Positions 2-21,039 of a stretch of DNA of 23,037 bases are shown here, one piece after another (position 1 is the stretch's first letter; each line of letters opens with the position of its first letter). The position numbers were made by a program, and so were the translations under genes. Below the pieces are notes generated by a model, which was given only the letters and a program-made list of their open reading frames with translations, was not told the DNA's origin and made no database searches. Source of the stretch: a virus; the IMG/VR virus record IMGVR_UViG_3300034198_004571, positions 1 to 23,037 of that record; one strand, written 5' to 3'.

Positions 2-1912
2 GTGCAGTGGGATGACTTTCGCATCCTGTGCGCTGCCAAGACGTGGGACGAGGTGTCGGCGATTGCGTTTCGCCACCGGATGAACCGCGAAGACTGCGTT
101 GAGAAGTTCGGCGAAGAAATCGGATCGGCCATTCCACTGGATTCGGTCGAAGACGAAGACGTAAAGAAGTCCAAGGACACCGCAGACCTATTCAAGACGG
201 CCGAAGTTTGGGAGATTTGGGACAAGGAAGAAAAGGAAGTGGTGTGGATTTGCCCCACGCATCCGACGCCCTGCAAGACCCAAGATGACCCGCTAAAACT
301 GTCCGGCTTTTTCCCGATCCCACGTCCTCTGTACGCCATCGAGAACGACCAGACGCTGGTGCCCACGGCGCTCTATAGCCAATACGAGCAGCAGGCGAAG
401 GAACTCAACCGTATCAGTGTGCGGATCAACAAACTGATCGACGCGCTGAAAGTGCGCGGCATCTACGACTCGACGCTCACCGAGTTGTCCGAGTTGATGA
501 AGTCAGGTGACAACGACCTGATTGCGGCGTCCAACGTCACAGCGCTGCTTGAGCGCGGCGGTCTGGACAAGGCCATTTGGATGATGCCGATCGACACGGC
601 GGCGATGGTCCTGAAAGAGTTGTACGGGCAGCGCGACGCCACCAAGCAAGTCATTTATGAGGTCACCGGCATCAGCGACATCCTGCGCGCCGCCAGCGAC
701 CCGAATGAGACGTACGGCGCGCAGAAGATCAAGGCGCAGTGGGGCTCGCAGCGCTTGCAGCGGCTCCAGATGGAAGTGCAGCGCTACATCCGCGACCTGA
801 TCCGCCTGAAGGCCGAAATCATTGCGGAGAAGTTCCAGATCGAGACGCTGGAGCAAATGACGTTGCTGCCTTACTTGCACCAGGCGCAACTGGATCAGCA
901 GTTTGCGCAGGCCATGCAGCAATACCAGCAGGCCGCGATGCAAGCTCAGCAGCAGGGCCAGCAACCACCACCGCCCCCACAGCGCCCGCAGGCGATCACC
1001 TGGGAGCAAGTGGGCGAGGCCATGCGCAACGACGCCACGCGCACGTACAGGGTGGACATTGAGACCGACAGCACGTTGTCCGCCACGCAGGACGGCGACA
1101 TGAAGGGCTTGCAGGATTTGCTCGGCGGACTGTCGCAACTCATCACCGGATTCGGCCCAGCGGTGCAAGCGGGTGCGATCCCCATTGATGCGGTCAAGGC
1201 CATCATGGGCGTGGTTGTCAGGCGCGCCAAGATGGGCACGGCGGTCGAGGATGCGCTGGAAAAGATGCAAGCACCTCAAGCCGGTCCTGATCCGGAGGTT
1301 GCCAAGGCTCAAGCTGCACAGCAGGCCCAACAGGCTCAACAAGCGCATGAGGCGCAGATCGAGCAGGCTCGAATGCAGCACGAGGCGCAACTGGAACAGA
1401 TGAAGGGCCAACAGACCGCCCAACTTGAGCAGATGAAAGCGCAACTTGCCGACAAGCAGCACCAGCGTGAATTGATCGCCAACCAGCAAGCCAGCGAGGC
1501 CGACGCGCAACGCACGATGGCACTGGAGCAGCACAAACAGGAAATGCAAGCGCAGCAGGTCCAGCATCAAAACGAAATCGAGGCGCAGCGCGAGATGCAG
1601 CGTCAGCAACTCGAAGCGGCACAGTCTGATCGCGAGGCCGCATACAAGGCTCAGATGGAGGCCAGCCGCTTGGAGTTCGACAAATACAAGGCCGATCTGG
1701 ACTACCGCAAGGCCATTGAGGTGGCCGAGATCGCCGCGCAGACCACGCTGCAAGCCGCACAGGCAACCGCAGCCACGCAAGCCGCCAAGGGAGAACCAGT
1801 GGCAGCAGCCAACAACGACACCAACACCAAGCTTGACGCGGTGCTGGCCCATCTGAGCAAGCCGAAAAAGATCGTGCGCGGTCCTGACGGCAAGGTCGCA
1901 TCAATTGAGTAA
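2..1912 (+). CDS. Portal protein, C-terminal part (5' end outside window)
   Basis: This is the portal (head-to-tail connector), the dodecameric ring at one capsid vertex through which DNA is packaged and ejected. The reading frame is open from the first base, and the first visible residues (QWDDFRILCAAKTW) already lie inside the fold, so the N-terminal part lies upstream of the window; the GTG at position 2 is not a real start. About 636 residues are visible. Residues 1-400 have the look of P22/SU10-type podovirus portals, including a helical segment with TGISDILRAAS and a Leu/Arg-rich stem-like helix. A Pro-rich stretch lies near residues 322-330. From about residue 428 to 593 the chain is an extreme Gln/Ala/Glu-rich coiled coil, matching the long C-terminal helical barrel of P22-like portals. 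The terminase large subunit would be expected just upstream. The identity is inferred from sequence character and gene order. Confidence 0.85.
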   Translation: MQWDDFRILCAAKTWDEVSAIAFRHRMNREDCVEKFGEEIGSAIPLDSVEDEDVKKSKDTADLFKTAEVWEIWDKEEKEVVWICPTHPTPCKTQDDPLKLSGFFPIPRPLYAIENDQTLVPTALYSQYEQQAKELNRISVRINKLIDALKVRGIYDSTLTELSELMKSGDNDLIAASNVTALLERGGLDKAIWMMPIDTAAMVLKELYGQRDATKQVIYEVTGISDILRAASDPNETYGAQKIKAQWGSQRLQRLQMEVQRYIRDLIRLKAEIIAEKFQIETLEQMTLLPYLHQAQLDQQFAQAMQQYQQAAMQAQQQGQQPPPPPQRPQAITWEQVGEAMRNDATRTYRVDIETDSTLSATQDGDMKGLQDLLGGLSQLITGFGPAVQAGAIPIDAVKAIMGVVVRRAKMGTAVEDALEKMQAPQAGPDPEVAKAQAAQQAQQAQQAHEAQIEQARMQHEAQLEQMKGQQTAQLEQMKAQLADKQHQRELIANQQASEADAQRTMALEQHKQEMQAQQVQHQNEIEAQREMQRQQLEAAQSDREAAYKAQMEASRLEFDKYKADLDYRKAIEVAEIAAQTTLQAAQATAATQAAKGEPVAAANNDTNTKLDAVLAHLSKPKKIVRGPDGKVASIE

Positions 1913-1921
1913 GGACTAATC

Positions 1922-2389
1922 ATGGCAACAGGCAATATCAAATGGTTCCAGCAAGCGGTGCTGGACCTTGGCACCAAGATTCACAACCTCACCAGCGACG
2001 CGCTGTTGCTGGGCATCGTCACCACGACGACCGTGCCCACGATGGCGACGGCTGGACCCCACTGGGGCGGCACGGGTACGACCAACTTCGCCACCAACCA
2101 GGTCGGCACGGGCGGCGGCTACACCGGGCCGATCACGCTGGCCTCGGTGACCTGGACGAACGTAGCCGGCGTGCTGACCCTGCGAGCCACTGACGTGTTG
2201 ATCCCTCAGAACGCCGCCGGTTTCAGCAACGGCGCGTACGGGATCATCTACAACAACACCGACGCAAACAAGCGGGCCATCGCCTTCATCGAACTGAGCG
2301 CGGCGGGCACCCTGTCCATCGTTTCCGGCTCGGTGACGATTGACTTCCAGGGTGCTGGCACGGACGTGCTGACGATCACGCCAGCCTGA
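1922..2389 (+). CDS. Hypothetical virion-associated protein, 155 aa
   Basis: The start is ATG 1922, with a good ribosome site (AAGGA at 1911-1915, six bases before it). The stop overlaps the next start (TGATG at 2387-2391). The protein begins with a short amphipathic helix (NIKWFQQAVLDLGTKIHNL) and continues as Thr/Gly/Ala-rich beta-type sequence with repeated short strands (GPITLASVTWTN, GVLTLRATDVLI, GTLSIVSGSVTIDF). No signal peptide or membrane segment is seen. It is the first gene of the seven-gene block between portal and scaffold and looks like a small decoration or fibre component. No enzyme motif is visible. The virion role is inferred from composition and position, not from a recognised family. 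Confidence 0.7.
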   Translation: MATGNIKWFQQAVLDLGTKIHNLTSDALLLGIVTTTTVPTMATAGPHWGGTGTTNFATNQVGTGGGYTGPITLASVTWTNVAGVLTLRATDVLIPQNAAGFSNGAYGIIYNNTDANKRAIAFIELSAAGTLSIVSGSVTIDFQGAGTDVLTITPA

Positions 2390-2739
2390 TGAGTTTCGTT
2401 GCCGACCGTGTATCGCAGACCGCTGCCAATCCAGGCGCGGGTGCGGTCACGCCCTCCGGTTCTGTCAGTGGATATCAGACCTTTTCGGCTGGTGTGACCA
2501 CGGGCGCGACGGTGACCATCGCCATCGAGTCCACGGTGGCCGGCGATTGGGAAGTGTGCGACGCGGTGTGGAACGGCACGACCCTCACCCGAGGCCAGAT
2601 CAGCGCGTCAAGCACTGGATCGCGTGTGACCTTCACCACGACCGTCAATGTATTCCTGACTCCTTCGGCGCGTGCGCTCAAGGGCATCCGACGCGGCACC
2701 GCCATGCAGGTCAGCGCAGGCAATTTTGGAGTGATTTAA
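2389..2739 (+). CDS. Phage fibre-type beta-domain protein, 116 aa
   Basis: ATG 2389 overlaps the stop of the previous gene, so translation is probably coupled. The whole protein resembles a domain found in many phage tail fibres: it starts with DRVSQTAANPGAG, followed by GYQTFSAGVTTGATVTIAIES, then a DWEVCDAVW segment, a TLTRGQISASS segment and an NVFLTPSA strand. In the known domain these correspond to the 'DRV...GAF.SF', 'W.EVG.GTY', 'TL.R..V..SS' and 'V.C..P' blocks. Here the domain stands alone as a separate gene rather than repeated in a long fibre. It is probably a virion surface or fibre component; the binding partner is unknown. The domain match is from memory and should be confirmed by profile search. 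Confidence 0.7.
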   Translation: MSFVADRVSQTAANPGAGAVTPSGSVSGYQTFSAGVTTGATVTIAIESTVAGDWEVCDAVWNGTTLTRGQISASSTGSRVTFTTTVNVFLTPSARALKGIRRGTAMQVSAGNFGVI

Positions 2740-3153
2740 ATGGCACTTGACCCGCAGTACACCACCACGCCGAACATCGCGTCCAGCACGCTGACGGCGG
2801 CAAATAACGTTTTTGACGGCACTGGTACGACCGGCATTTGCTTCACCGCTGGCGCGTCTGGCTCGTTTCTTGGCTTCGTGAAACTCAAGCCGAACAACGC
2901 CACGGCGAACACCACGGCCAGCGTTGCACGGTTCTGGATCAACAACGGCCTGACCTCTGCCACGGCGGCCAACAACTTCTTCTTCGGTGAGGTGTCCTTG
3001 CCAACGACGAGCGCATCGACCAGCGTGGCTCAAGTCGAGCTGTCGATGCCGTTCAACCTTGCCTTGCCCGCTGGCTACAAGATCATTTGGTCTCTCGCGG
3101 CGGCTCCTGGTGGTGGCGGCTGGGCAGCAACCGGCGTCGGCGGGGACTTCTGA
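2740..3153 (+). CDS. Small phage structural protein, 137 aa
   Basis: ATG 2740 follows directly after the previous stop (TAA 2737-2739), with TGGAG upstream. The protein is Thr/Ala/Asn-rich beta-type sequence: SSTLTAANNVFDGTGT near the start, ARFWINNG in the middle, and the ending GYKIIWSLAAAPGGGGWAAT plus GVGGDF. This architecture ('...WINNG...LPAGYK...W.VT..GGD') recurs in small proteins of phage virion gene clusters, usually of unknown function and thought to be structural. No membrane segment or catalytic motif is seen. The stop overlaps the start of the Gly-rich gene (TGATG at 3151-3155), supporting co-expression with the putative adhesin downstream. Confidence 0.7.
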   Translation: MALDPQYTTTPNIASSTLTAANNVFDGTGTTGICFTAGASGSFLGFVKLKPNNATANTTASVARFWINNGLTSATAANNFFFGEVSLPTTSASTSVAQVELSMPFNLALPAGYKIIWSLAAAPGGGGWAATGVGGDF

Positions 3154-4001
3154 TGGATTTCAGCGGCTTCGCGCAAACTGGCGTCAAGCCCATCGTCTTG
3201 CAGGGCCAAGGCCCGAGCGCGCTCGGCGCTCGTTCGCTGCCGATCCCCAAGTGGTGCAAGTTCGTCTACGTCGTCATGGTCGGCGCGGGCGGCACTGGTG
3301 GCGCGGGGTTCAGCCGCACCGCTGGCACGGCGGGTGGTGGTGGTGGTGGTGGTGGGTCTGGCGGCATCACGCAAGCACTGATCCCGGCGTCGGCTTTCCA
3401 AGGCACCCTGTACTACAAGGTTGACATTGCGGGCGGCGTTGCAACCACCGGTATCTGGACATCGTGGGAAACCACGTCGCAACAAAACGCCGCACTTGCT
3501 TCGGCGGGTAGCGGCTCGACTGGCGGCACAGGCACGGGTGCCGCAGCCGGTGCTGCGGGTGGCGCGGGATCAGCTGGCACGATCAAATTCCCCGCATTTG
3601 GTATCGCAACCGTCGGCAACGCCGGGATCATCGGCGGCGCTCAGACCGGCGCAGTGGGCGGCACTTCAACCACGTCCAACATCCCCATCGTCATGGGCGG
3701 CGCGGGCGGCGCGGGCTGCACAACCACCGACTTCGCGGGCGGCCCCGTGACGTATGCGACGACCCTCACACTGACCCTTCCGGGTGGATTAGCAGCAGGC
3801 GGCGCGGGACAACATGGCTGGTATTTAAGCCAGTACATGAGCGGCTTTGGCGGCTCGGGAGGCGGCTCGAACAACGCGGCCACGGGCGGCGCGGGCGGTG
3901 ATGGTGCCATCGGCTGCGGCGGTGGCGGTGGCGGCGCTGGTGTCACCGGAGGCGCAGGCGGCAAGGGTGGTAACGGTCAGATTTGGGTCTGGTTCCTATG
4001 A
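3153..4001 (+). CDS. Glycine-rich virion protein, candidate adhesin (282 aa)
   Basis: The start chosen is ATG 3153, overlapping the preceding stop; an in-frame upstream ATG at 3087 would lie inside the previous gene and is rejected. Residues 1-42 form a beta N-terminus (IPKWCKFVYVVMVGAGG), the usual opening strand of phage Gly-rich domains. It is followed by an eight-Gly run (61-68). A central section (about 120-225) alternates Gly/Ala runs with short strands. The C-terminal 45 residues are a dense Gly-X-Gly array ending in an aromatic strand (GQIWVWFL). Gly-rich domains of this type occur in tail-fibre tips and adhesins; in T4-like gp38 adhesins they form polyglycine II helix bundles. A receptor-binding or fibre-tip role is therefore a reasonable inference, but it is not proven. 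The stop overlaps the next start as ATGA. Confidence 0.72.
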   Translation: MDFSGFAQTGVKPIVLQGQGPSALGARSLPIPKWCKFVYVVMVGAGGTGGAGFSRTAGTAGGGGGGGGSGGITQALIPASAFQGTLYYKVDIAGGVATTGIWTSWETTSQQNAALASAGSGSTGGTGTGAAAGAAGGAGSAGTIKFPAFGIATVGNAGIIGGAQTGAVGGTSTTSNIPIVMGGAGGAGCTTTDFAGGPVTYATTLTLTLPGGLAAGGAGQHGWYLSQYMSGFGGSGGGSNNAATGGAGGDGAIGCGGGGGGAGVTGGAGGKGGNGQIWVWFL

Positions 4002-4399
4002 TCGACTTTCAAGACGGGGAATTTGTGAACTCGCTCGACGTCGAGTTCGAGTCGCTGGCTGATGCACAAGCCAACCGCTCGGCGGTGGTCGATGCGGCGG
4101 CGCTCAGCCTGCGCAACAAGGCAACCGCTGGCACCAGCCCCGCAGAGATGTCCTCGTGGCCGCTCAAGCTCGCCGCAGCCAACGCAGGCGGTGGTCAGAT
4201 GCTTGCGCTCGAGGCTCAATATCGAGGCATCACCGAGGCCGAACTGATCCAGTTGGTCCTCGACAGCGCGGCGCAGCTCAGCCAGCTCGAAGCGGTCATT
4301 GCTGGTGTCTCTGGCAATCACCGCGATGCCATCGCTGCGTTGACCACGATTGAGGAAGTCTGCGCATACGACATGCGCTCGGATTGGCCTGAGGTCTAA
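3998..4399 (+). CDS. Hypothetical protein after the Gly-rich gene, possible fibre chaperone (133 aa)
   Basis: The start is ATG 3998 in an ATGA overlap with the stop of the Gly-rich gene; a TTG 15 bases upstream is also in frame but less likely. The protein has a short acidic N-terminus (MIDFQDGEFVNSLDVEFESL), then an Ala/Leu-rich helical body including AELIQLVLDSAAQLSQLEAV and GNHRDAIAALTTIEEV. It ends with YDMRSDWPEV, which recalls the tails of phage fibre-associated small proteins. No membrane segment or catalytic motif is present. A helical protein encoded immediately after an adhesin-like gene suggests a fibre assembly chaperone or a fibre partner. That role is inference from position only. 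Confidence 0.65.
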   Translation: MIDFQDGEFVNSLDVEFESLADAQANRSAVVDAAALSLRNKATAGTSPAEMSSWPLKLAAANAGGGQMLALEAQYRGITEAELIQLVLDSAAQLSQLEAVIAGVSGNHRDAIAALTTIEEVCAYDMRSDWPEV

Positions 4400-4402
4400 C
4401 CC

Positions 4403-5539
4403 ATGATCGGCGCGTATCCGGTCGGGTCGAGGCCGGTCGCTGCGGGGCCGGTTGCTGCGGCATCCGGAACCACGATCACATGCACCGTAGGTGGTGCATC
4501 GGCTGTTGGCGTCACGGCGCTCATCAGCCAGACGATACCGACGACCGTTGGCAACGCCAGCGCGCTGGGCACGACCGCGACGATCTCAACATCGACTGCG
4601 ACGACGATCACTTGCACGGTCGGCAATGCCAGCGCACTGGGAACGACAGCGCTCGTCAGTTCGAGCATCGTTGCAACGGTCGGCAATGCTGCTGCTGCCG
4701 GGGTCTCTGCTCTAGTTAGCACGACGCTACAGACAACCACCGGCAACGCTGCGGCGACCGGAACGACGGCGCTGCTCAATTTGAGCGTTGTCGCAAGCGT
4801 AGGAGATGCGAGCGCGCTGGGCGTCACGGCGGCGATCAGCACGTCAGGCGGGACGACGATCACTTGCAGCGTAGGAAACGCTGGGGCGGCCGGCACGAGC
4901 GCGCTGGTCAGCCCGAGCATCGTGGCCTCGGTCGGCAACGCGGCGGCGGCTGGTGTCACTGCAGCGGTCAGCACGACGCTCCAGACGACCACCGGCAACG
5001 CAGCCGCTACGGGCGTTTCGGCGCTGTTGGCTACGTCGGTTCAGACGACGACCGGAAACGCGGCAGCGGTCGGAATAACGGCCCTGCTGCCAGTGTCTGT
5101 GCAGACGGCCACCGGCGATGCCAGCGCGTTGGGCGTGACAGCCGCGGTCAGCACGACGGTCGGGGTCACGATCAGTTGCACGGTGGGCGGCGCGGCGGCG
5201 GCTGGTGTCTCTGCGCTGCTGAATGTCTCGCTGCAAACGTCAGTGGGGAATGCGACGGCGCTGGGTATTACTGCGCTGATCAACACCGAAGCGCCACCCA
5301 CCAAGATCGGCGGCGACGACGCCCCAAGAGGTGGCCGGTATCAGGTCCAAGTGCGCAACAAGGTGCATTTGTTTGACACCGACGAGGAAGCGCAAGCGTT
5401 CCTGAAGTCGTTGTCCAAGAAGGCCAAGAAGGTTGCCACCGCCAAGCCGCTGGACCGTGGTTACGTCCAAATGATGGACGCAATCACGGCGGGTTTCGAC
5501 GACGAGCAAGACATCGAAGAAATCTTGATGTTGCTGTGA
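4403..5539 (+). CDS. Tandem-repeat protein with small C-terminal domain, 378 aa
   Basis: ATG 4403 has GAGG at 4391-4394 eight bases upstream. Residues 24-295 consist of 13 tandem repeats of about 20 residues with the core pattern V/T-G-N/D-A-x-A-x-G-x-x-A. The alternation of Thr/Ser beta positions with Gly-Asn turns suggests a beta-solenoid or stacked-sheet fibre. Charged residues are almost absent in the repeats. Residues 310-378 are quite different: a charged domain containing GGRYQVQVRNKVHLFDTDEE, a Lys-rich helix (KSLSKKAKKVATAK) and an acidic end (DDEQDIEEILMLL). That looks like an anchoring or interaction domain. No known family was recognised. A virion fibre or decoration role fits the gene block. 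The next gene's GTG start overlaps this stop. Confidence 0.75.
   Translation: MIGAYPVGSRPVAAGPVAAASGTTITCTVGGASAVGVTALISQTIPTTVGNASALGTTATISTSTATTITCTVGNASALGTTALVSSSIVATVGNAAAAGVSALVSTTLQTTTGNAAATGTTALLNLSVVASVGDASALGVTAAISTSGGTTITCSVGNAGAAGTSALVSPSIVASVGNAAAAGVTAAVSTTLQTTTGNAAATGVSALLATSVQTTTGNAAAVGITALLPVSVQTATGDASALGVTAAVSTTVGVTISCTVGGAAAAGVSALLNVSLQTSVGNATALGITALINTEAPPTKIGGDDAPRGGRYQVQVRNKVHLFDTDEEAQAFLKSLSKKAKKVATAKPLDRGYVQMMDAITAGFDDEQDIEEILMLL
4472..5287 (+). repeat. 13 tandem ~60-bp repeats coding for VGNAxAxGxxA units
   Basis: The repeats encode residues 24-295 of the gene at 4403. Most units are 60 bases (20 codons); four are 3-9 bases longer. A higher-order period is visible: the segment beginning at 4604 (acgatcacttgc) recurs at 4856, an offset of 252 bases or 84 codons, with the same order of unit subtypes (TTITC-type, SIV-type, TLQ-type). 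The array therefore probably grew first by unit duplication and then by duplication of a four-unit block. The DNA copies have diverged at many synonymous sites, so the array is not fresh. Confidence 0.85.
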
Positions 5540-5946
5540 ACTGGGATCACACCATGACGCTTGAAGAGCAGTTGGGGTTCACCCCGCAAGACAAGGCCAA
5601 TTGGCTGGAGATGTACGCGAAGCATTACGCAGACCCTGAGCAAGGATGGCGGGAGAAATTGGAGATGCACGCCAACCCAAAGCGCTCTGCGGCTGTGTAC
5701 GTCATGCCGGGGTATCAATCGCCCGCGTCTGGGCGCTGGATCGAAACCCCGCGCCAACGCCGCGAGGATTTCAAGGCGACCGGCACTCGCGAGTGGGAGG
5801 GCATGGCAAACGAGCGCCAGCACTCCGAGCGTCAAAAGCAGTACGCCGAAGAGAAATTCGACAAAGCACTGGACCACACGGTCAGGTCTGCATGGGCAAA
5901 CCTGCCCGAAGCGAAAAAGCAGCAAGCACTCGCTACGGCGGGCTAA
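5536..5946 (+). CDS. Hypothetical phage protein, 136 aa
   Basis: The start is uncertain. GTG 5536 gives a GTGA overlap with the previous stop, a habit seen at several junctions in this window. ATG 5554, six codons later, is the alternative; neither has a strong ribosome site. The protein is soluble and charged. The centre carries PGYQSPASGRWIETPRQRRE followed by DFKATGTREWEGM, a pattern ('Y.SP..GR.I..R..R.EDLK..G.REW') I recall from small conserved proteins in phage head gene clusters. The C-terminus is a charged helix (HSERQKQYAEEKFDKALDHT). The function is unknown; position next to the scaffold suggests a head-related role. Confidence 0.72.
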   Translation: MNWDHTMTLEEQLGFTPQDKANWLEMYAKHYADPEQGWREKLEMHANPKRSAAVYVMPGYQSPASGRWIETPRQRREDFKATGTREWEGMANERQHSERQKQYAEEKFDKALDHTVRSAWANLPEAKKQQALATAG

Positions 5947-5956
5947 GGAGCAACAC

Positions 5957-6178
5957 ATGGCATTCACCGAAGCAACCCTGACGGCCCAACTCGACCCCAC
6001 GGGCCAAGGCCGCACGATCACGCTGGAGCGGTTCATCACTGACAGCGCAACGATCACCACGATCTACGCAGTGGGCGTTGTGGCACCGTATGCGGGTCGT
6101 TCCCGCTGGATGGACATTGCGCAAACCAACACCGCCGCACAAGCCGCCACGTTGGTGCAAAACAACCTGCAAGCCTGA
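5957..6178 (+). CDS. Small hypothetical protein, 73 aa
   Basis: ATG 5957 has a near-perfect ribosome site (AAGGAG at 5945-5950, six bases before it), which decides this start; the longer open frame upstream only overlaps the previous gene. The protein opens MAFTEATLTAQLDPTGQGRT and continues with beta-type sequence (TTIYAVGVVAPYAGRSRWMD), ending in a short Ala/Gln/Thr-rich helix. There is no signal peptide or catalytic motif. It is the last gene before a strong terminator at 6201-6222, closing the block between portal and scaffold. No family was recognised. Confidence 0.72.
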   Translation: MAFTEATLTAQLDPTGQGRTITLERFITDSATITTIYAVGVVAPYAGRSRWMDIAQTNTAAQAATLVQNNLQA

Positions 6179-6200
6179 GTCTCAGCGCTGCAATTCACCA

Positions 6201-6222
6201 AGCACCTTCGGGTGCTTTTTTT
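6201..6222 (+). terminator. Rho-independent terminator before the scaffold gene
   Basis: A perfect 6-bp stem (AGCACC 6201-6206 with GGTGCT 6211-6216) closes on a very stable TTCG loop and runs into seven T residues (6216-6222). The tail of the T-run touches an in-frame ATG at 6223, and the scaffold ribosome site lies only six bases further on. It would end transcripts of the portal-proximal block. Confidence 0.85.
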
Positions 6223-6237
6223 ATGTCCGGAGCAACC

Positions 6238-7266
6238 ATGATCGAAAACGAAGGGGCAACCCCCATCGAAGACGAAGTTATTGAAGTCGAACAGCCCAAG
6301 AGCATGGACGACACGATCCGCGAGACGCTGCGCAGTCTCAAGGAGCGAGGCGCAGAGATCGAGGCTCCGGCTGATCCGGAAGAAAAAGCCGAACGCATTC
6401 GCAACGAACAGGGCAAGTTTGCCAAGGCCGAGGACAAGCCAGTCGAGCCCGAAACACCCGCCGAGCCTGAAGTGGCCGAGCCGCAGATCAAGGCGGCACC
6501 GAACACCTGGAAGAAAGGTCCTGCCGAGAAGTTTGTCGCGCTCGACCCCGAAGTGCAGGAAGAAATCCTGCGCCGCGAGGCAGACATCCACAAGGGGCTT
6601 GAGGGTTACAAAGCCAAGGCGCAATGGGCTGACACCATGCAGTCGGCCATCGCTCCATTTGAGGCCACCGTGCGCGCTTTGGGCGTGACGCCTGACGTTG
6701 CAGTGCGCGAGCTGATGGCAGCGGACCACAAGATGCGCTACGGCACACCAGCCGACAAGCAGCAGTATTTCGCCTATCTGGCGAAATCTTACGGAGTTGA
6801 CCTAAGCCAACTCCCAGCCACAGATTCAGCATCGGTTGACCCGACAGTCGCAGCCCTGAAACAACAGGTCGAGCAGTTGTACGGGCACATCAACCAGCAA
6901 CAAGTTCAGAGCAAGCAGCAAGCAGAACAAGCGCTCAACAGCGAGATTTCTGCCTTTGCTGCCGATCCGAAGAATAGGCATTTTGAGAGTGTCAGGGGGT
7001 ACATGGCCGCGCTACTGCAAGCCGGTCAGGCCTCCGATCTAGCAGATGCCTATGAGCAAGCGGTCTACGCAAACCCAGCGACCAGAGCAGCCTTACTTGC
7101 AGAACAGCAAGCCGCAGCTCGGGCTGAGTCAGCGAAGAAAGCACAGGCGGCAAAAGCGGCCAGCAGCGTCAACGTGCGCAATCGGCCATCAATGCCAGTT
7201 AGCCAGCCCATAGGTTCTATGGACGACACCATCAGGGCGACTTTGCGACGACTGCAAAGCGCCTGA
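6238..7266 (+). CDS. Probable capsid scaffold protein, 342 aa
   Basis: The start chosen is ATG 6238, with CGGAG at 6228-6232 five bases upstream. The in-frame ATG 6223 sits in the T-run of the terminator and has no ribosome site. The protein is acidic at the N-terminus, Glu/Lys/Pro-rich through residue 90, then mostly helical, with a Gln-rich coiled-coil stretch near 205-240 (QQVEQLYGHINQQQVQSKQQ) and an Ala-rich C-terminus. Lack of beta structure, charge, and position immediately before the major capsid gene are typical of podovirus scaffolds. The motif SMDDTIRxTLRxL appears at both ends (residues 22-34 and 327-339). No protease motif was seen. The scaffold identity is from context and composition. 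Confidence 0.78.
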   Translation: MIENEGATPIEDEVIEVEQPKSMDDTIRETLRSLKERGAEIEAPADPEEKAERIRNEQGKFAKAEDKPVEPETPAEPEVAEPQIKAAPNTWKKGPAEKFVALDPEVQEEILRREADIHKGLEGYKAKAQWADTMQSAIAPFEATVRALGVTPDVAVRELMAADHKMRYGTPADKQQYFAYLAKSYGVDLSQLPATDSASVDPTVAALKQQVEQLYGHINQQQVQSKQQAEQALNSEISAFAADPKNRHFESVRGYMAALLQAGQASDLADAYEQAVYANPATRAALLAEQQAAARAESAKKAQAAKAASSVNVRNRPSMPVSQPIGSMDDTIRATLRRLQSA

Positions 7267-7290: not shown

Positions 7291-8286
7291 ATGGCCTCAC
7301 CCGGTCAAGGTTATTCCGCCGGTAACTTCGGCGTTTTCTCGGAGTTGGTCACAACGACCTTCCGCAATCACAGCAAGGACATTGCTGACAACGTATCCAA
7401 GCACAACGCGCTCTATCGCAAGCTCACCGAGACCGGCAACGTCCGCCTCGAGGACGGCGGTCTGAGCATCGTTCAGCCGCTGGAATACGCCAACAACACC
7501 ACTTATCAGCGCTACTCGGGCTATGACGTGCTCAACATCGGCGCGGTCGATGTCCTGAGCGCTGCCGAATACCCGTGGCGTCAGGTTGCGGTCAATCTGG
7601 CTGTGTCCGGTCTGGAAATGCGTACCAACAGCGGCGAAAACCGCATCATCAACTTCGTCAAGGCGAAGGTGAAAAACGCGCAGCACAGCTTTTCCAACGG
7701 CCTGAGCGCTGACCTGTACTCTGACGGCACCGCCGCCAACCAGATTAACGGTCTGCAAGCACTGGTTGCTGACGCTGGCACAGGCACTGTGGGCGGCATC
7801 AACAGCTCGACCTATGCCTTCTGGCAAAACGTCGTGCAGTCTGCTGCGGCACCTCTGCAAGGCGGCTCGGGCATTACGCCTTCGGCCACCACGTTCGAGT
7901 CGCTGATGCTTCCGCTGTGGATCAAGTTGACCCGTGGCATGGACACGCCTGATTTGATCGTGATGTCGGACGACTACTTCACGTTCTATGAGCAGTCGCA
8001 GACCTCGCTGAAGCGCTACACCGCAGCCGAAGACGGCAAGGGCGGGATGATGACCATGAAGTACAAGTCTGCGGACGTGTTCTTCGACTCATCGGGTGGC
8101 ATCCCAGCCGGTCACGCCTATTTCCTCAACAGCAAGTACATCGACTTGGTGGTCCATCAGGACGCAAACATCACCATGCTCGATGACGTTGAGGCGATCA
8201 ACCAAGACGCGTTGGTGAAAACCATCATCTGGCAGGGCAATGTTGCGTTGAGCAACCGTTCCCTCCAGGGCGTCCTCAAGGCTTAA
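7291..8286 (+). CDS. Major capsid protein, 331 aa
   Basis: ATG 7291 is preceded by AGGAG about eight bases upstream. Length and sequence fit the major capsid proteins of BPP-1/BcepC6B-like podoviruses, which have an HK97-type fold. An N-terminal arm (residues 1-45, FGVFSELVTTTFRNHSKDIA) is followed by a region that matches an E-loop (LEDGGLSIVQPLEYANNTTY). Mixed alpha/beta core and A-domain sequence follows, including PDLIVMSDDYFTFYE and HAYFLNSKYIDLVVH. There is no sign of a fused protease or a long delta domain, which fits a separate scaffold gene just upstream. It forms the icosahedral shell with the cement-like protein encoded next. Confidence 0.88.
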   Translation: MASPGQGYSAGNFGVFSELVTTTFRNHSKDIADNVSKHNALYRKLTETGNVRLEDGGLSIVQPLEYANNTTYQRYSGYDVLNIGAVDVLSAAEYPWRQVAVNLAVSGLEMRTNSGENRIINFVKAKVKNAQHSFSNGLSADLYSDGTAANQINGLQALVADAGTGTVGGINSSTYAFWQNVVQSAAAPLQGGSGITPSATTFESLMLPLWIKLTRGMDTPDLIVMSDDYFTFYEQSQTSLKRYTAAEDGKGGMMTMKYKSADVFFDSSGGIPAGHAYFLNSKYIDLVVHQDANITMLDDVEAINQDALVKTIIWQGNVALSNRSLQGVLKA

Positions 8287-8296
8287 GGAGAGCACC

Positions 8297-9019
8297 ATGC
8301 CTTTTTCACAAATCACGCCTGTCGTCGGACAGTTGCAGCAGGGTTATCCCAACCCAGTGGACACGATCCAACGCGAAATTCTGGGCACGGTCATCCCAGC
8401 GGTGGACAACTACTTTGGTTTCGGCGAGTTCATGTACGTGCAGTTCCCTGCATCGGCTGCGATCACGTTCGGCCAAGTGGTGGTCATTTCCGGTTTCGGC
8501 GGCTCGTCTGGTTATTCCGCAGCCGTTGCCACCAACGCCGCCAACACTGGCCGCTCTATCGGCATCTGCATCAACGCTGTGGCCTCGGTCGCTTCAGTGC
8601 AGTACGGCTGGGTCCAGATCAGCGGCAACGCTGTGATCAAGACCACCGCGTCGGTAGCAGCAGGTACGACGTTCGGCATTGACGCTTCGACTGGTGGCTC
8701 GGTTGCAGCCAACTCGGCAGGCCGTCAGGTGCTCAACGCTGTGTCGGTTGCGCCTTCCACCACCACCATCGTCAAGACTTGGACGCTGCGCAACGGCTCG
8801 CCGATTGCTGTGGCTTCGAACGTTGACGGCTTGGTGCCGGGTCTGGCGCTGTCTGGCACGGGTGTGTCGGGCACGATCACGTCGATCGACTACGACAACC
8901 GCACGATCACGATGTCTGCCAACGCTTCGGCTGGTGGCCCATCGTCGGTGACTGCGACTTACACCGGCTTCATCGTCGGTCAGATCAATCGTCCTTTCCT
9001 CCAAGGCGCGACCTCTTGA
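8297..9019 (+). CDS. Probable capsid cement/decoration protein, 240 aa
   Basis: ATG 8297 has AAGGAG at 8284-8289. The gene directly follows the major capsid gene, where many podoviruses encode a cement protein that locks capsomers from outside. Residues 40-150 are a compact beta domain (FMYVQFPASAAITFGQVVVI, SIGICINAVASVASVQYGWV, GNAVIKTTASVAAGTTFGID) of the kind seen in DUF2190-like capsid cement proteins. Residues about 158-223 are a second, Thr/Ser/Gly-rich module (NVDGLVPGLALSGTGVSGTI, DNRTITMSANAS) of a type common in phage surface proteins. The first domain resumes with GFIVGQINRPFLQG. A terminator lies directly downstream. The role is inferred from position and beta composition. Confidence 0.75.
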   Translation: MPFSQITPVVGQLQQGYPNPVDTIQREILGTVIPAVDNYFGFGEFMYVQFPASAAITFGQVVVISGFGGSSGYSAAVATNAANTGRSIGICINAVASVASVQYGWVQISGNAVIKTTASVAAGTTFGIDASTGGSVAANSAGRQVLNAVSVAPSTTTIVKTWTLRNGSPIAVASNVDGLVPGLALSGTGVSGTITSIDYDNRTITMSANASAGGPSSVTATYTGFIVGQINRPFLQGATS

Positions 9020-9121: not shown

Positions 9122-9736
9122 ATGGCCTACGCCGACCCGATGAGCAGAGTCCCGTTTTTCATGTTCGCTGACCGTGAGCACGGTGTCGATGAACCCGCCA
9201 GCAAAGAACTGGGCTACCAAGTGCCCAAGATGGCGACATTCATTCTGATTACCCCCCACGGCCACAAGGGCGATCCGCTGGAATTCTTTGCAGACGAGTT
9301 CATCGAGCGTAAGGGTCGCGAAGCCCGCGAGGGTCGGTATGACCATACCTGGGTGGCCGAGTTCAAGTCGGGTCTCGCCGCGCACCGTGAAGGCAAGGCC
9401 ATTCCACGCAATGGCACCGCGCTGATCACATGGGAACGCATCCTCAAGTCGCGCCGTGAGCAACTGGTGCAGCGCTTCCCCACGGTCGAGGATTTGGCCG
9501 CTGTGCCTGACTCATCGCTGGGCGAAATTGGCCTTGATGGGCGCGTTCTGCGCGACATGGCAAAGGCCGACATTCAAGCCAAGCGTGACCTGTCGCCCGT
9601 GGTCAAGGAACTGGCCGACACCAAAGAAGAAAACCGCCGACTGCAAGAGCAACTTGACGCACTGACGGCTCGCCTTGACCGCATGGACGAAGACAAGCCG
9701 CGCCGCCGCAAGTCGGCAGAAACCGAACTGGCGTAA
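9122..9736 (+). CDS. Hypothetical head-region protein with C-terminal coiled coil, 204 aa
   Basis: ATG 9122 is preceded by AAGGA at 9110-9114. It follows the capsid genes after two hairpins and precedes the adaptor gene. Residues 1-110 are a mixed domain of unknown fold (YQVPKMATFILITPHGHKGD, DPLEFFADEFIERKGREARE). Residues 120-160 are helical. Residues 165-190 are a clear coiled coil (ELADTKEENRRLQEQLDALT), followed by a very basic tail (KPRRRKSAETELA). No membrane segment or enzyme motif is seen. Similar proteins are often found between cement and adaptor genes of podoviruses and have no assigned job; a role in head completion is possible. Confidence 0.72.
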   Translation: MAYADPMSRVPFFMFADREHGVDEPASKELGYQVPKMATFILITPHGHKGDPLEFFADEFIERKGREAREGRYDHTWVAEFKSGLAAHREGKAIPRNGTALITWERILKSRREQLVQRFPTVEDLAAVPDSSLGEIGLDGRVLRDMAKADIQAKRDLSPVVKELADTKEENRRLQEQLDALTARLDRMDEDKPRRRKSAETELA

Positions 9737-9746
9737 GGAGTAGCCC

Positions 9747-10454
9747 GTGGCCCTGTCCTGCCTTCAAATCGTTCAAGCCGCGTGCAAGCGCATCGGCATC
9801 GTGGCGCCGACTGCGGCCTATACATCGCAGGACCAGCAGATCATTCAATTGCTGTCTCTGAGCGAGGAAGAAGGGCAGGAGCAGGCTACCCGTTACCCGT
9901 GGCAAGCCCTGCAAACAGAAACCACGTTCACCACAGTGGCGGCTCAGGTGCAAGGTGCAATCTCCACCATTGCGCCGGGGTTCGATTACATCGTCAACGA
10001 CACGATCTGGAACCGCTCGCTACGTCGTCCGGTGTATGGACCCAAGTCTCAGCAGGATTGGCAGCAAGCCAAGGCCATGCAGATCAATGGCCCGTTCAAC
10101 TCGTTTCGGATCATCGGCGACGTACTGAATTTCTACCCCAATCCAGTGGCGGGGCAAACGTGTGCGTTTGAGTACATCAGCCTCAACTGGATCGCCACCT
10201 CCACGGGTAGCACCTCATCAACGTGGACCAACGACGCCGACACGCCGCGCATTGACGATCAGTTGATGGTGCTGGGGCTGGTGTGGCGTTGGAAGCAAGC
10301 CAAGGGTCTGGATTACGCCGAGGATTTCAACAAGTACGAACGCCGCATCGCCGACTTGATGGGCCGCGATTCCGGCAAGGCCACGCTGTCAATGTCAGGC
10401 GCGAAATACGACATTCAGCCGGGTGTGTTTGTGCCTGCCGGGAGCTGGTTCTAA
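9747..10454 (+). CDS. Head-tail adaptor protein (SU10-type), 235 aa
   Basis: The start is GTG 9747 with AAGGAG seven bases before it, a strong ribosome site that decides the start. The N-terminus (LSCLQIVQAACKRIGIVAPT) followed by QIIQLLSLSEEEGQEQATRY and PWQALQ is the typical opening of podovirus adaptor proteins of the phage SU10 type, which attach below the portal and hold the nozzle and fibres. The middle is beta-rich (FRIIGDVLNFYPNPVAGQTC). The C-terminus carries a helix with VWRWKQAKGLDYAEDF and ends FVPAGSWF. The nozzle gene overlaps the stop (TAATG 10452-10456), consistent with both being tail parts made together. Confidence 0.8.
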   Translation: MALSCLQIVQAACKRIGIVAPTAAYTSQDQQIIQLLSLSEEEGQEQATRYPWQALQTETTFTTVAAQVQGAISTIAPGFDYIVNDTIWNRSLRRPVYGPKSQQDWQQAKAMQINGPFNSFRIIGDVLNFYPNPVAGQTCAFEYISLNWIATSTGSTSSTWTNDADTPRIDDQLMVLGLVWRWKQAKGLDYAEDFNKYERRIADLMGRDSGKATLSMSGAKYDIQPGVFVPAGSWF

Positions 10455-15203: not shown

Positions 15204-17324
15204 ATGGCTGATCTTTCCGCGCTGTCTGATGACGACTTGATCAAGCTGTACCAGCAGGTCAGCGCATCGCCCGCTCCGGCATCCGAAACCCAATGGCAAC
15301 GAGACGCCGACGGCAACGTGAGCGGGTTTACCAAGTCAAACTTGGCCCCCAAGATGACCGACCCGTCCACGCTGCAAATCGGGCCGATGGACACAGGGAT
15401 TAAGATTCCCGGTGGCGTCAACGATGCACTGATTCGTGCCGGCAGGGGAACCGCTGACTTTTACCAAGGGGCCAAGCAAAAGGCTTTGAACTGGGCTTAC
15501 GGGAACAACTCCCCAGAAGCCAAGGGGTACACAGACAAGGTCAACGAAGAAAACGCGTTGTATGACCAAGGGCACGGTCTTGATGCTGGTTTTGACGGGT
15601 GGCGCTTGGCCGGCAACGTCGTCAACCCATCGCTGTTGCTGGGCGGTGGGGCATCCACGTTGGGGCGCTTAGGCATGGGTGTGCTGCAAGGCGGCTTGTC
15701 GAGCTATGCCAATTTCAGCAAGGACAACAACGCGCTGGACAATCTGACTCAAGCCGGCATCGGTGCGGGGCTAGGCGGCGCATTGAACGTGGGTGCCCCG
15801 TATGTAATTGACGGGGTCGTCAATCTGGCATCGGCTTTGTCCAACTACGGCAAGAAAGCCGTCAACGTCGCCACGCACGTCCCAGACTTGGTGGGTGGTG
15901 GCCTCGAGGCCAAGGTGGCGGCAATCTACGGTGCAGCGCAAAACGGGCCCGCCGCCACCAGTTGGCAATCGCTTGCTCCGACTGTGCGCGATCAGTTGGT
16001 CAGCGATGCCAAAGACATGCTGGTGCAAAACGGGCAACTCGACGTAAATGCGCTGGCACGCAAAGCATCCATCCTAGGCATCAACGGCAAGCCAACCACG
16101 GGCATGGTCACGCGCAGTCCTCTGGACTGGACGCAAGAGCGCAACTTGCAAAAGCGTCTGGCGCAAGCCGGCACATCTGATGGCGCACTAGACCCGATCA
16201 CCGCAGCACTCAAGACCAACGACACGGCCCTGAGCAATCAAGGCACCAGGATCGCCTACGAGATTTCCCCGCATGCACCCAACGACTACGCGGTCGGGCT
16301 GCAAGCGCAACGCACGATTGAAGGCATATCCAAGGCTTCACAGCGATCAGTCAGCGACCTGTACGGTCAAGTCAGGGATGCGGTCGGGGACCAATCAGGC
16401 ATTGGATACGACAACATTCTGCACAGCCTGGACACGCTCAAGGACAACGCTTACGCGCACAACTTCCACGACTCGGTGATGAACCGCTTGTCGAGTCTGG
16501 TGGGCAAGGGTCAAGACCTGACGGTCAATAAAGCCGAGGAGTTGCGTAAATTCATCGGCACGTTGCCTGACAACGTGAGCGGGGTGGATGTCACCGGCTG
16601 GAAGTCGCAAATCAGGGATGCCATCGACCACGATGTGATTGGCGCGGCGGGGCAAGACTTTTTTACTGGTGCTCGAGCCGCAGCGCGAGATCGGTTTCAG
16701 ATGCTGCACGACCCAGCCATTCAAAACCTGATCAAGTCAGGCGGCTCGCTAGGCGAAGACAAGAACGCCATGACATGGGTCAACAAGTTCGTGATGAACG
16801 GAGGCCCAGGCGACATTGCCAAGCTGCGTGATGTTTTGCAATCGCAAGGCGGACAACCTTTGTGGGACAACATCCGCGCGCTCGTTGTTCGCAATTTGCA
16901 AGACGGCGCGATCGGAGTGGATGGCAGGTTTAGCGGGGCCAATCTAAACAAGGCCATCGACAAGCTTGGGCCTGATCGCATGAGTTCATTGTTTTCACCC
17001 GAAGAACTGTCCAAGTTGCGAGGTTGGCAGGCCAACGCTCATGCAATGACCGTGGAGCCTCCGTATTCCGGCGTCAACCATTCGGCCAGCGGCACATTTT
17101 TGAGTGCGGCGGAGAACCTGCCTTGGGGTGCTGGCTCGTTGGCGCGCAAGCTCAACGAAGGCAACGCTGTCAACGATGTGCTGAGAGCGGTGGCGACCGG
17201 CGCAGGAGACGCGCAATCAAAAGCAACAGCCAAAGCTCAAGCCACTGCCGACATGATCCGGCGCTGGCTTCCAAGCGTTGGCCCCGGAACGCTGCCGGCT
17301 GGGGTACAGAACAACCAGCGTTAA
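15204..17324 (+). CDS. Large internal virion/ejection protein, 706 aa
   Basis: ATG 15204 follows the previous stop without a gap; AAGGGG lies upstream. The N-terminus (ADLSALSDDDLIKLYQQVSA) is the short acidic helix typical of large ejection proteins in podoviruses. Residues about 137-215 contain Gly/Ala/Leu-rich hydrophobic stretches (NPSLLLGGGASTLGRLGMGV, LTQAGIGAGLGGALNVGAPY, VIDGVVNLASALSNYG) that could insert into the host membrane after ejection. The rest is long helical sequence, with Asp/Asn/Lys-rich turns. No lytic transglycosylase motif was seen. The protein probably helps form the trans-envelope channel. Its stop codon overlaps, tail to tail, the stop of a possible small minus-strand gene. 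Confidence 0.72.
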   Translation: MADLSALSDDDLIKLYQQVSASPAPASETQWQRDADGNVSGFTKSNLAPKMTDPSTLQIGPMDTGIKIPGGVNDALIRAGRGTADFYQGAKQKALNWAYGNNSPEAKGYTDKVNEENALYDQGHGLDAGFDGWRLAGNVVNPSLLLGGGASTLGRLGMGVLQGGLSSYANFSKDNNALDNLTQAGIGAGLGGALNVGAPYVIDGVVNLASALSNYGKKAVNVATHVPDLVGGGLEAKVAAIYGAAQNGPAATSWQSLAPTVRDQLVSDAKDMLVQNGQLDVNALARKASILGINGKPTTGMVTRSPLDWTQERNLQKRLAQAGTSDGALDPITAALKTNDTALSNQGTRIAYEISPHAPNDYAVGLQAQRTIEGISKASQRSVSDLYGQVRDAVGDQSGIGYDNILHSLDTLKDNAYAHNFHDSVMNRLSSLVGKGQDLTVNKAEELRKFIGTLPDNVSGVDVTGWKSQIRDAIDHDVIGAAGQDFFTGARAAARDRFQMLHDPAIQNLIKSGGSLGEDKNAMTWVNKFVMNGGPGDIAKLRDVLQSQGGQPLWDNIRALVVRNLQDGAIGVDGRFSGANLNKAIDKLGPDRMSSLFSPEELSKLRGWQANAHAMTVEPPYSGVNHSASGTFLSAAENLPWGAGSLARKLNEGNAVNDVLRAVATGAGDAQSKATAKAQATADMIRRWLPSVGPGTLPAGVQNNQR

Positions 17325-17449
17325 CGCACGCGAAACAGCGCGTCCCGCAACTTTCCAGGCGGGAACACATACCAGAGCAAGCTGGCGGCAACTTTGATGC
17401 CGACGACGAACGCGATCACCATGAGTGATCTGTAGAACCAGTATTCCAT
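17321..17449 (-). CDS. Possible small membrane protein on the opposite strand, 42 aa
   Basis: On the minus strand an ATG at 17449 opens a 42-codon frame ending in TAA at 17321-17323. That stop overlaps the + strand stop of the ejection gene in the sequence TTAA. The peptide has one strong hydrophobic segment (about residues 6-29, RSLMVIAFVVGIKVAASLLW) with a basic C-terminal tail (PGKLRDALFRVR), so it looks like a single-pass membrane peptide. GAGAGG precedes the ATG by only three bases, a close but usable ribosome site. It almost exactly fills the gap between two + strand genes. No clear promoter was found. It might be a moron-type gene, or a chance frame. Confidence 0.4.
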   Translation of the reverse strand: MEYWFYRSLMVIAFVVGIKVAASLLWYVFPPGKLRDALFRVR

Positions 17450-17458
17450 TTGCCTCTC

Positions 17459-17482
17459 AAGCCACCTCCGGGTGGCTTTTTT
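17459..17482 (+). terminator. Rho-independent terminator before the tailspike gene
   Basis: An 8-bp perfect stem (AAGCCACC 17459-17466 with GGTGGCTT 17471-17478) with a TCCG loop runs into a six-T tract (17477-17482). It should end transcription from the ejection genes. The tailspike ribosome site follows six bases after the T-run. There is no matching T-run on the other strand, so it works in the + direction only. Confidence 0.85.
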
Positions 17483-17499
17483 CATTTCAGGAGCCAAGC

Positions 17500-19479
17500 A
17501 TGCCATTTAACGGGTCAGGCACTTTCACGCCTTACACACCGGGCAATCCGGTCGTGTCGGGTACGACGATCAGCAGCACAGCGATGAACAACACGCTGAC
17601 CGACGTGGCGACGGGGCTGTCTAACACGTTGACCCGCGACGGTCAAGGCATCGCGTCCGCCAACCTCCCGATGGGGGGCTTCAAGCACACCGGGGCGGGT
17701 GCTGCAACTGCGTCTGGTCAATACACGGTCTATGGTCAAACCGGCGCGGTGTTAGACACGGTGTTTACCCCAGCCGGAACCGGAGCCGTCGCCACTACCA
17801 CGCAGACCAAGCTGCGCGAGTCGGTGAGCGTGAAGGACTTTGGGGCCAAGGGTGATGGCACGACCGACGACACCGCTGCCATTCAAGCCGCTGACACGGC
17901 GGCAACCGCTGCGGGAAAGACGTTGTATTTCCCAGCAGGAACTTACCGAATCAACACAAGCACACGACTCTCAATGGGCGGATGCAACTGGGAAGGCGAC
18001 GGACAAAAACAAAGTGTTTTGCAGTCTGCGGCAGGAACCTATAGCGCGGCAACTTACATGGTGACTGCCAACACCCTAAGCAATTTCACCATCAGTAAAT
18101 TGGGCTTTGATGTAAGTCTGGCGACATTTACGGCGGGCTCCACTTATGGCCCGTTGCTAATGTTCTCCTGCACGAATTGGCACGTCAAAGATTGCGCGTT
18201 TATTGGACTGCAAACGTACACGCTAGGCATTTACGTCAACGGTGGCGATGCTTGGTCTATCACGGACTGTTACTTTAAAAACGCATCTCCAAGCACCAAC
18301 CAGAACCAGGCAATCAACATTCAAGTTGGGTCTGGCAAGCATATGGTTTGCCGGAACACGATGATCGGCACGGGTTTGTTTTCAAACGGGGCGGACAGCC
18401 TTTATTCCGAAAATATTGTGACCGGGTGGAAATTTGGCGGCGGCCTGACTTTTGGTCCAAACAGTAGTTGCACCAACAATCGGATCATTGGCAACTATTG
18501 CGTTGGTGGAACTGGTGCCCCCGACGTAAATGCAACTTACACCTCCGGGATTGAGTGTTGGGGGTTGTTTTCGCAAATCATCGGCAATTACTGCGCGTCC
18601 AACGCTGGAATGGGCATTGTCATTGCTGGGAACAATTCCGTAGTTAGCGGAAACACTTGCGTCAACAACGGACAAAGCTCGGCCCTTCCTGGAATCGGCG
18701 CTTATTCCAAAGTTATCTCAGCATTTACATATTCGGTGGACAAAAGTGTTATTTCTGGCAACGTATGCACGGATACTCAAGGCAGCAAAACGCAAACATA
18801 TGGCTACGCTGAATTCAGTATTTCTGCTAGCCCCATTACAGGCGTAATAGTTTCTGGAAACTACTTTTCCGGTAACTTGACAGGAACGCAATTGTTGCTT
18901 GGCACTAGCCCAACGACCAATTTTATAAACGGTGCGGTACAGGCGTCGTCGGTGGGGGTTGGAGCGGTCCCATTCAATAATGTGTCGCTAGTCACTAGCA
19001 CCAACTCCACATTGACCGGCACAGCTCAACGAGGAATTCAAGTCAATGACACGTTTTCGTCTGCGGCCACTGGGTCAGTTTACGGAGTCAGTGTTTCGCT
19101 GACTAACCAAGCCGCAACAGGCGCTTGTGCTGGGTTGGTTGTATCCAATCCTGTCCTATCGGGCGGCACGATTACAAACAACTATGGTGCTTTTATCAGC
19201 GATCTGACCAGCGGCACAAACAATTACGCTTTTCTAGGTAGCGTTACCACCGGGGCGAACAAGTGGAATTGCTACATGTCGGGCACGGCTCCGAACTTCT
19301 TTCAAGGCGCGATATGTGTCCCCGGTGGAACGCAATCAGTTTTGCAGACCATTGGCGCAGTGACATCAGGAGCAGGGGCCAACACCGGCACGCTCACCAA
19401 CTCTCCGGTCACAGGGAATCCAACAAAGTGGATTCCGTTCAACGACGCCGGAACCATTCGTTACATCCCAGCATGGTGA
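17500..19479 (+). CDS. Tailspike with pectate-lyase-type beta-helix, 659 aa
   Basis: The start is ATG 17500 with AGGAG at 17489-17493; the frame extends upstream to 17425 but crosses the terminator. Residues 1-108 look like a particle-binding head, with helical segment TAMNNTLTDVATGLSNTLTR and PMGGFKHTGAGAATASGQYT. Residues 109-130 (SVSVKDFGAKGDGTTDDTAA) are the classic entry to a pectate-lyase-3-like beta-helix, which receptor-degrading phage spikes use. Repeated helix turns follow at about 328-450 (IIGNYCVG, IIGNYCAS, VVSGNTCV, VISGNVCT, VIVSGNYF). The C-terminal 200 residues are Thr/Gly-rich and probably trimerise. The substrate and catalytic residues cannot be read. The middle of the gene is clearly lower in GC than its neighbours, which suggests domain exchange. 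Confidence 0.85.
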   Translation: MPFNGSGTFTPYTPGNPVVSGTTISSTAMNNTLTDVATGLSNTLTRDGQGIASANLPMGGFKHTGAGAATASGQYTVYGQTGAVLDTVFTPAGTGAVATTTQTKLRESVSVKDFGAKGDGTTDDTAAIQAADTAATAAGKTLYFPAGTYRINTSTRLSMGGCNWEGDGQKQSVLQSAAGTYSAATYMVTANTLSNFTISKLGFDVSLATFTAGSTYGPLLMFSCTNWHVKDCAFIGLQTYTLGIYVNGGDAWSITDCYFKNASPSTNQNQAINIQVGSGKHMVCRNTMIGTGLFSNGADSLYSENIVTGWKFGGGLTFGPNSSCTNNRIIGNYCVGGTGAPDVNATYTSGIECWGLFSQIIGNYCASNAGMGIVIAGNNSVVSGNTCVNNGQSSALPGIGAYSKVISAFTYSVDKSVISGNVCTDTQGSKTQTYGYAEFSISASPITGVIVSGNYFSGNLTGTQLLLGTSPTTNFINGAVQASSVGVGAVPFNNVSLVTSTNSTLTGTAQRGIQVNDTFSSAATGSVYGVSVSLTNQAATGACAGLVVSNPVLSGGTITNNYGAFISDLTSGTNNYAFLGSVTTGANKWNCYMSGTAPNFFQGAICVPGGTQSVLQTIGAVTSGAGANTGTLTNSPVTGNPTKWIPFNDAGTIRYIPAW

Positions 19480-20860: not shown

Positions 20861-21039
20861 GGTGGGGGCTCCTGCTCTGCCTGCTGCTCGCAGGCTGCGC
20901 AGCCGTGCCCATCGTCGATTGCGCCTGTGATGAAAAGCGCATCAAGTACGCCGAGCCGCTGGACGACGGACCCGAGGAAGTCACTTGCCGAAAGACCGGC
21001 CAGTACATGGTCTGCTATCCCGTCAGCGGTCGGGCATGA
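20857..21039 (+). CDS. Small Cys-rich lipoprotein, 60 aa
   Basis: GTG 20857 overlaps the holin stop. Residues 1-14 form a lipoprotein signal: Arg2, a hydrophobic run (GLLLCLLLAG) and the lipobox LAGC with the acylated Cys at 14. The mature part has 47 residues with further Cys at 22, 24, 44 and 53 and is acidic in the middle. The place after the holin and the lipobox fit an outer-membrane spanin subunit or a lysis-related lipoprotein, but it lacks the Pro-rich character and the overlapping-frame arrangement of classic Rz1. A superinfection-exclusion role is another option. The next ATG overlaps the stop as ATGA. Confidence 0.65.
   Translation: MRWGLLLCLLLAGCAAVPIVDCACDEKRIKYAEPLDDGPEEVTCRKTGQYMVCYPVSGRA

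Follow-up and report, generated by a model that had tools for sequence, protein, structure and literature searches.

The closest described counterpart of the locus treated here is fibre I of Ralstonia podophage GP4. GP4 reportedly carries five such accessory fibres at the tail vertex, each said to consist of five gp80 dimers joined by an elongated rope protein. PDB entry 8jou, with 10 bead chains and 3 adaptor chains, agrees with this reported make-up, and Pfam names PF23140 after the GP4 fibre I protein gp80 and PF23148 after the fibre-tail adaptor gp77. Chains 8jou_a and 8jou_D are homologous to gp53 and gp55, respectively, of the Bcep22-like phage JC1, and the gene between these two, gp54, encodes a repeat protein with a lag of 22 residues. 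We analysed a 23,037-base fragment of an uncultured IMG/VR virus (hereafter the window), which holds a podophage structural module with portal, scaffold, capsid, cement-like protein, tail genes and tailspike, and in which a run of genes separates the portal from the scaffold. By comparison with GP4, we think it fairly likely that six of these genes, o1 to o6, constitute an exchangeable accessory-fibre cassette of the fibre-I type, anchored by its C-terminal end.

Three further systems invite comparison. Alishewanella siphophage LSH1 has an extra module, gp34-gp35-gp36, that is present as a unit in about half of its relatives; gp35 matches 8JOU, and gp34 combines an adhesin domain with a poorly predicted, possibly repetitive stretch which the authors leave unexplained (PMC13243795, June 2026). 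Going by the published description, the module resembles o1-o6 in being present or absent as a unit, and the gp34 stretch is what one would expect of a rope; it differs in belonging to a siphophage, in following the lysis genes and in having a lyase-like payload (PMC13243795). In Anabaena myophage A-1(L), bead-chain neck fibres formed by gp82-gp81-gp80 sit on a 15-mer neck ring (PMC10966104). Being five bead-built accessory fibres with a neck anchor, they recall what we propose, whereas the A-1(L) beads are modelled head-to-tail as trimers, no rope is reported, and the anchor is the N-terminal domain of gp82 (PMC10966104). Finally, ordinary podophage tail fibres and tailspikes are reported to keep their N-terminus and swap their C-terminus (PMC10386132). 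They too are modular, horizontally exchanged host-binding parts, but the lineage of the window keeps the C-terminus and swaps the N-terminal part. Moreover, o1-o6 have no spike family match in PHROG or Pfam, and the spike is a separate gene.

An accessory block between portal and scaffold

Eight genes (o1-o8) run from portal to scaffold on the same strand, with stop and start codons overlapping or touching, and can be read as one operon. Which of them belong together? Searching viral contigs for the portal and the capsid yielded 112 loci, which were compared gene by gene (labels of the form L### denote these and other loci). Across the relatives, the gap between portal and scaffold measures either about 0.5-0.9 kb or 1.6-5.4 kb. 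At empty sites (L013, L014, L015, L016, L019, L031, L032, L046 and others) o7, usually o8, and the scaffold come straight after the portal. At filled sites (the window, L005, L008, L018, L021, L025, L037, L049, L051, L053, L059, L062 and others) the space from the portal to o7/o8 holds 1.0-5.0 kb of genes. Since the empty sites still hold o7 and usually o8, these two are core genes and o1-o6 are accessory. The filling genes are largely unrelated among filled relatives with similar portal, scaffold and capsid, and the middle genes of the block vary by locus. Compared with L005, L008, L018 and L049, for example, the capsid protein of the window is 82-89% identical, while 0-6% of the block can be aligned; between L053 and L062, 95% of the capsid is shared, as against 7% of the block. 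The genes o1-o6 thus form an accessory block that is swapped, lost or kept as a unit.

An earlier note on this stretch had described a seven-gene block from portal to scaffold. The gene run is real, but it counts eight genes, and its accessory part is confined to o1-o6 (1922-5539); o7 and o8, taken for members of the block, are kept in most empty and filled relatives. The short portal-scaffold layout that the note expected in such podoviruses is indeed seen in Mx8 and ctMlz233. Rather than being core in all relatives, as the gene-order comparison it proposed might have found, the block is present, absent or replaced at one site. The block was also held to end in its own terminator. The hairpin exists (6200-6217); because it follows the core gene o8, it does not mark the border of the accessory block, and we rejected it as the right-hand limit.

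Genes of other kinds also occur between portal and scaffold: by reading only, L036 has a tetratricopeptide repeat (TPR)/transferase-like gene (4938-6494) and L063 a deacetylase-like one (2353-4374). With such unlike genes in the same place, the portal-scaffold site appears to be an insertion hot spot. The position of o8 also varies; an o8-like gene lies upstream of the portal, not beside the scaffold, at about 7417-7736 in L059/L062 and at 357-560 in L060. Several empty relatives have a spike-type gene elsewhere, as judged by reading their sequences.

Repeats and constant tail of o6

The periodicity of o6 was examined at lags of 12-35 residues, with shuffled sequences as controls. The protein has 13 repeats spaced 20 or 24 residues apart, with a best lag of 20, and its periodicity was reached by 0 of 1000 shuffles. 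The best lag fell between 20 and 24 in 17 of 17 rope-like proteins (o6, JC1 gp54 and 15 others), 16 of which lay beyond 998 of 1000 shuffles; none of the control proteins from the window was periodic at that lag. The repeat period is therefore a common property of the rope-like proteins.

The repeats of o6 are followed by a characteristic tail. In the filled loci of this lineage, the last gene of the block ends in KxGGDDxP..., a basic helical stretch, acidic residues and a hydrophobic C-terminus (DDEEILMLL, for example). When records were searched with a profile of the tail, all 15 filled ones tested gave exactly one match each, the 12 empty ones gave none, and one collapsed record also matched. 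Most of the filled records had been fed into the profile, so that its absence from the empty set, some records of which span 34-41 kb, is the stronger half of this test. In the collapsed cassette, L067, only about 17 first codons of the first gene and the tail are left, with flanks 91.7% (portal side) and 94% (scaffold side) identical to those of L052. In ctTUS972 (annotated P22 coat protein), the single gene between portal and scaffold fuses about 60 o1-type residues to a tail ending in ...QEDEESLLMLL. What precedes the tail varies: unlike short repeats, a LamG-like domain with repeats (L005), or almost nothing (L018, L021, L025, L049). The C-terminal tail is constant, and the rest of the cassette is exchangeable. 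A search of the tail against the PDB gave no match. The tail probably fixes the rope to the virus particle.

A tail that persists nearly alone in L067, and in short genes in L018, L021, L025 and L049, could also be an assembly or chaperone signal, for instance for scaffold or portal, with o6 missing from the mature virion; that JC1 gp54 has gone unreported in virions would fit. Yet the 12 relatives with no such tail in their available sequence still encode the whole head module, and the rope-like proteins of other lineages have different ends. We therefore consider an assembly signal highly improbable and prefer to see the tail as a virion anchor.

Comparison with GP4 fibre I and probable place on the virion

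The arrangement of the cassette parallels GP4 fibre I and JC1 gp53-gp54-gp55: a small beta-rich bead gene is followed by a protein with repeats of 20-24 residues and a conserved C-terminus. An AlphaFold2 (AF2) model of o1 (predicted local distance difference test score, pLDDT, 88; predicted template modelling score, pTM, 0.87) may resemble the bead in fold; it aligns with chain 8jou_a over 118 of 155 residues at 3.5 Å (VIA Z 7.8, in the range that the tool calls common). Among solved structures compared by VIA, the best Z was 12.8, for a chain of a T4 baseplate complex, and the Bxb1 tail tip scored 7.5; the chains aligned to the model were mostly phage fibre, baseplate and tail-tip proteins.

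Gene order also links the two systems. Downstream of an adaptor, L201 encodes a bead of the gp80 type, a rope-like protein and an adaptor of the gp77 type. In the GP4/Bcep22-like locus L124, the adaptor (56% identical to its L201 counterpart and 37% to JC1 gp51) is followed by an o1 protein 85% identical to that of the window; further down come a gene of the o2 type, a repeat protein of 454 residues and an adaptor of the PF23148 family. An o1-type protein thus takes the place of the bead in a GP4-type operon. Parts of the cassette also occur fused to fibres and ropes. The o2 protein aligns with fibre N-termini in L104, L208, L209 and ct76p945, and in L208 and L209 gp80-type beads are followed by fibres carrying the o2 domain. 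Some ropes begin with a fused adhesin-type domain, which is Gly-rich in L212 and LamG-like in L005 and L134. The occupancy of the bead place in L124, the common periodicity and these fusions support an equivalent function. As for the rope ends in such loci, those in the GP4-like operons of L200, L201 and L205 finish in a motif of the kind E.RTF..P.E..F, and the rope of L133 (7477-8673), which follows a 77%-identical o1, ends in RSFYAPAEARALYAPAENRSLLAPAE; this type of end may possibly be a docking motif for gp77-type adaptors.

The components are not restricted to one lineage. The 48 viral relatives of o1 (45-88% identity) are nearly all found in phages without this portal or capsid, and the gene is shared horizontally among unrelated podo- and siphophages. 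In profile comparison, the o1 family joins genes of the phrog_644 type (E 8e-14) that open other cassettes. The o3 protein is about 40% identical to gene 24 of Rhodobacter phage RcBaka, which adjoins a tail-tip gene, and to proteins in L053 and L129; at the RcBaka locus the o3 relative is followed by a Gly-rich protein. The tail-tip locus of EBPR siphovirus 2 encodes an o1-type protein as well as repeats joined to a larger C-terminal region. The latter protein, gp72 (L175:3180-5939), with an o1-type gene nearby, has rope-type repeats, and its C-terminal region may be a tail-tip protein.

Might o1-o6 encode separate surface or carbohydrate-binding proteins that merely share an insertion hot spot? 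The unlike genes of L036 and L063 and the differences among middle genes would be explained in this way. The order o1-o2-o3-x-Gly-rich (twice)-repeat protein, however, recurs in the unrelated siphophage L129, and the tail ends the block in all filled records tested, which makes unconnected proteins quite improbable compared with a single fibre.

Where would such a fibre be attached? In siphophages L121, L126 and L129, o1 and a repeat protein have the capsid gene (phrog_10) on one side and the head-tail adaptor gene (phrog_442) on the other. Between L121 and L126, identity is 27% for the capsid proteins, 80% for the adjacent adaptors and 76% for the rope C-termini; between L126 and L129 the values are 72% (capsid), 60% (adaptor) and 49% (rope C-terminus). 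Because the end of the rope varies with the adaptor rather than with the capsid in L121 and L126, neck docking is favoured, and from these comparisons the fibre probably sits near the neck. Genes placed inside the head gene cluster, with like cassettes next to the capsid gene in the three siphophages, could also encode head fibres or capsid decorations, the o6 tail binding the capsid shell or a cement protein. The conserved rope end on divergent capsids in L121 and L126 speaks against such a decoration, which for o1, o3 and o4 is further weakened by their relatives at the tail-tip loci of RcBaka and EBPR siphovirus 2; we regard it as unlikely.

In the mechanism that we propose for a neck-docked fibre, o6 would be the rope, with 13 short beta repeats each holding one bead, and o1 would be the bead threaded along it. 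The lineage-specific tail of o6 would attach the fibre to the particle, with the neck (the portal or head-tail adaptor ring) as the most likely place, and o4, perhaps together with o2, o3 and o5, would form or load a distal adhesin end. What we infer from the comparisons above is that the parts make up one fibre, that each repeat holds one bead, that the dock is at the neck and that the fibre binds the host.

Several observations weigh against assigning the cassette to the GP4 type. PF23140 was absent from searches of the window lineage and did not detect o1, alignment of the o1 and gp80 family profiles with hhalign gave no match (E 0.45), and PF23148 had no match in the window, which is a fragment, or in 17 lineage records. 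By sequence, the cassette is therefore not a gp80/gp77 member, and it further differs from GP4 fibre I in its DDEE-LMLL tail, its portal-scaffold location and its extra genes o2-o5. The fold similarity of the o1 model to the bead is, moreover, in the common range, the top score going to the T4 chain. The AF2 model of o6, with beta-strand repeats and a helical tail, is of low confidence and was left out of the fold search. The rope was compared through JC1 gp54 and like proteins, not the rope chain of GP4 itself, and gp54 is not among the published JC1 virion proteins. Finally, the co-variation of rope and adaptor could stem from linkage, as their genes lie side by side.

Features of the window and implications

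The features of the portal-scaffold region and its surroundings are collected in the table.

Features of the 23,037-base window
Feature	Position	Strand	Basis
Portal, left flank of the site	2-1912	+	phrog_12082, E 1e-118
o1, 155 residues, first cassette gene, proposed bead	1922-2389	+	48 viral relatives; AF2 model; bead place in L124
o2, 116 residues, N-terminal domain of large fibre proteins as a stand-alone protein	2389-2739	+	alignment
o3, 137 residues, beta-rich WINNG...GGD protein	2740-3153	+	relatives: RcBaka gene 24, L053, L129
o4, 282 residues, Gly-rich, proposed receptor-binding tip	3153-4001	+	PF21722 E 0.001, below its cut-off; phrog_863 E 8e-5
o5, 133 residues	3998-4399	+	weak phrog_2618 match, E 1e-4
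o6, 378 residues, proposed rope: 13 repeats of 20-24 residues, then C-terminal tail	4403-5539	+	
o6 conserved C-terminal tail (KIGGDDAPR...EEILMLL), proposed virion anchor	5288-5536	+	alignment; test on filled and empty records
o7, core gene outside the cassette	5554-5946	+	retained by most empty and filled relatives
o8, core gene outside the cassette	5957-6178	+	retained by most empty and filled relatives
Terminator-like hairpin with T run, 3' of o8	6200-6217	+	
Scaffold, right flank	6223-7266	+	place before capsid; kept in relatives
Major capsid protein	7291-8286		phrog_9953
Cement-like protein	8297-9019		phrog_29386
Tailspike, separate gene	17425-19479		

PHROG and Pfam searches of o1-o8 gave mostly nothing above noise. 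Neither a megablast of the whole window nor a tblastn of o2 and o5 found a match among cultured phages, and the major capsid protein had no relative in the bacterial genomes searched. PF12236 (head-tail connection) had no match in the window, and the same search was silent in every control genome too. The protein at 15204-17324, tried as a marker for comparing downstream regions, was hardly conserved. A 188-residue protein encoded at 20985-21551 reads like a sigma-factor region and has no PHROG match. Among the relatives, the major capsid gene is split after about 31-35 codons in L024, L067, L025 and L026. Rfam places group I introns in L024 (950-1729) and L067 (13333-14142), the split sites of L025 and L026 lie at about 9246-10000 and 4412-5170, and all four loci have an open reading frame of 150-180 residues that reads like a GIY-YIG homing endonuclease.

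What, then, does the cassette represent? Three of the proteins singled out by the earlier note are borne out: its 13-repeat protein is o6, its Gly-rich protein o4 and its WINNG...GGD protein o3, with relatives at a siphophage tail-tip locus, and the tailspike is indeed encoded apart from them. Of its two suggestions for their role, head fibres or a second host-binding apparatus, a second surface apparatus other than the tailspike is the best reading, and the gene context favours the neck over the capsid. The note's candidate for an undescribed assembly is not wholly without precedent, its logic matching GP4 fibre I and the LSH1 extra module; the cassette would rather be a variant of the bead-rope-adaptor scheme already known from GP4.

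On a broader view, to which we would give somewhat less than an even chance, cassettes of beads, tip adhesins and a rope are a general plug-in of tailed phages, with one bead per repeat, which moves between unrelated virions and of which only the short C-terminal tail of the rope is adapted to the local neck. The DDEE-LMLL tail would then represent a new docking code, used by podophages of this lineage. The comparison suggests that poorly predicted stretches of the LSH1 type are ropes, offering an explanation for the repetitive stretch left open by the LSH1 authors. It also provides a testable rule for unannotated repeat proteins in phage head regions, namely that the beta-repeat rope varies and its C-terminal anchor stays constant. 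Accessory fibres gained and lost as a unit, to which the cassette points, would bear on the evolution of host range and on annotation.

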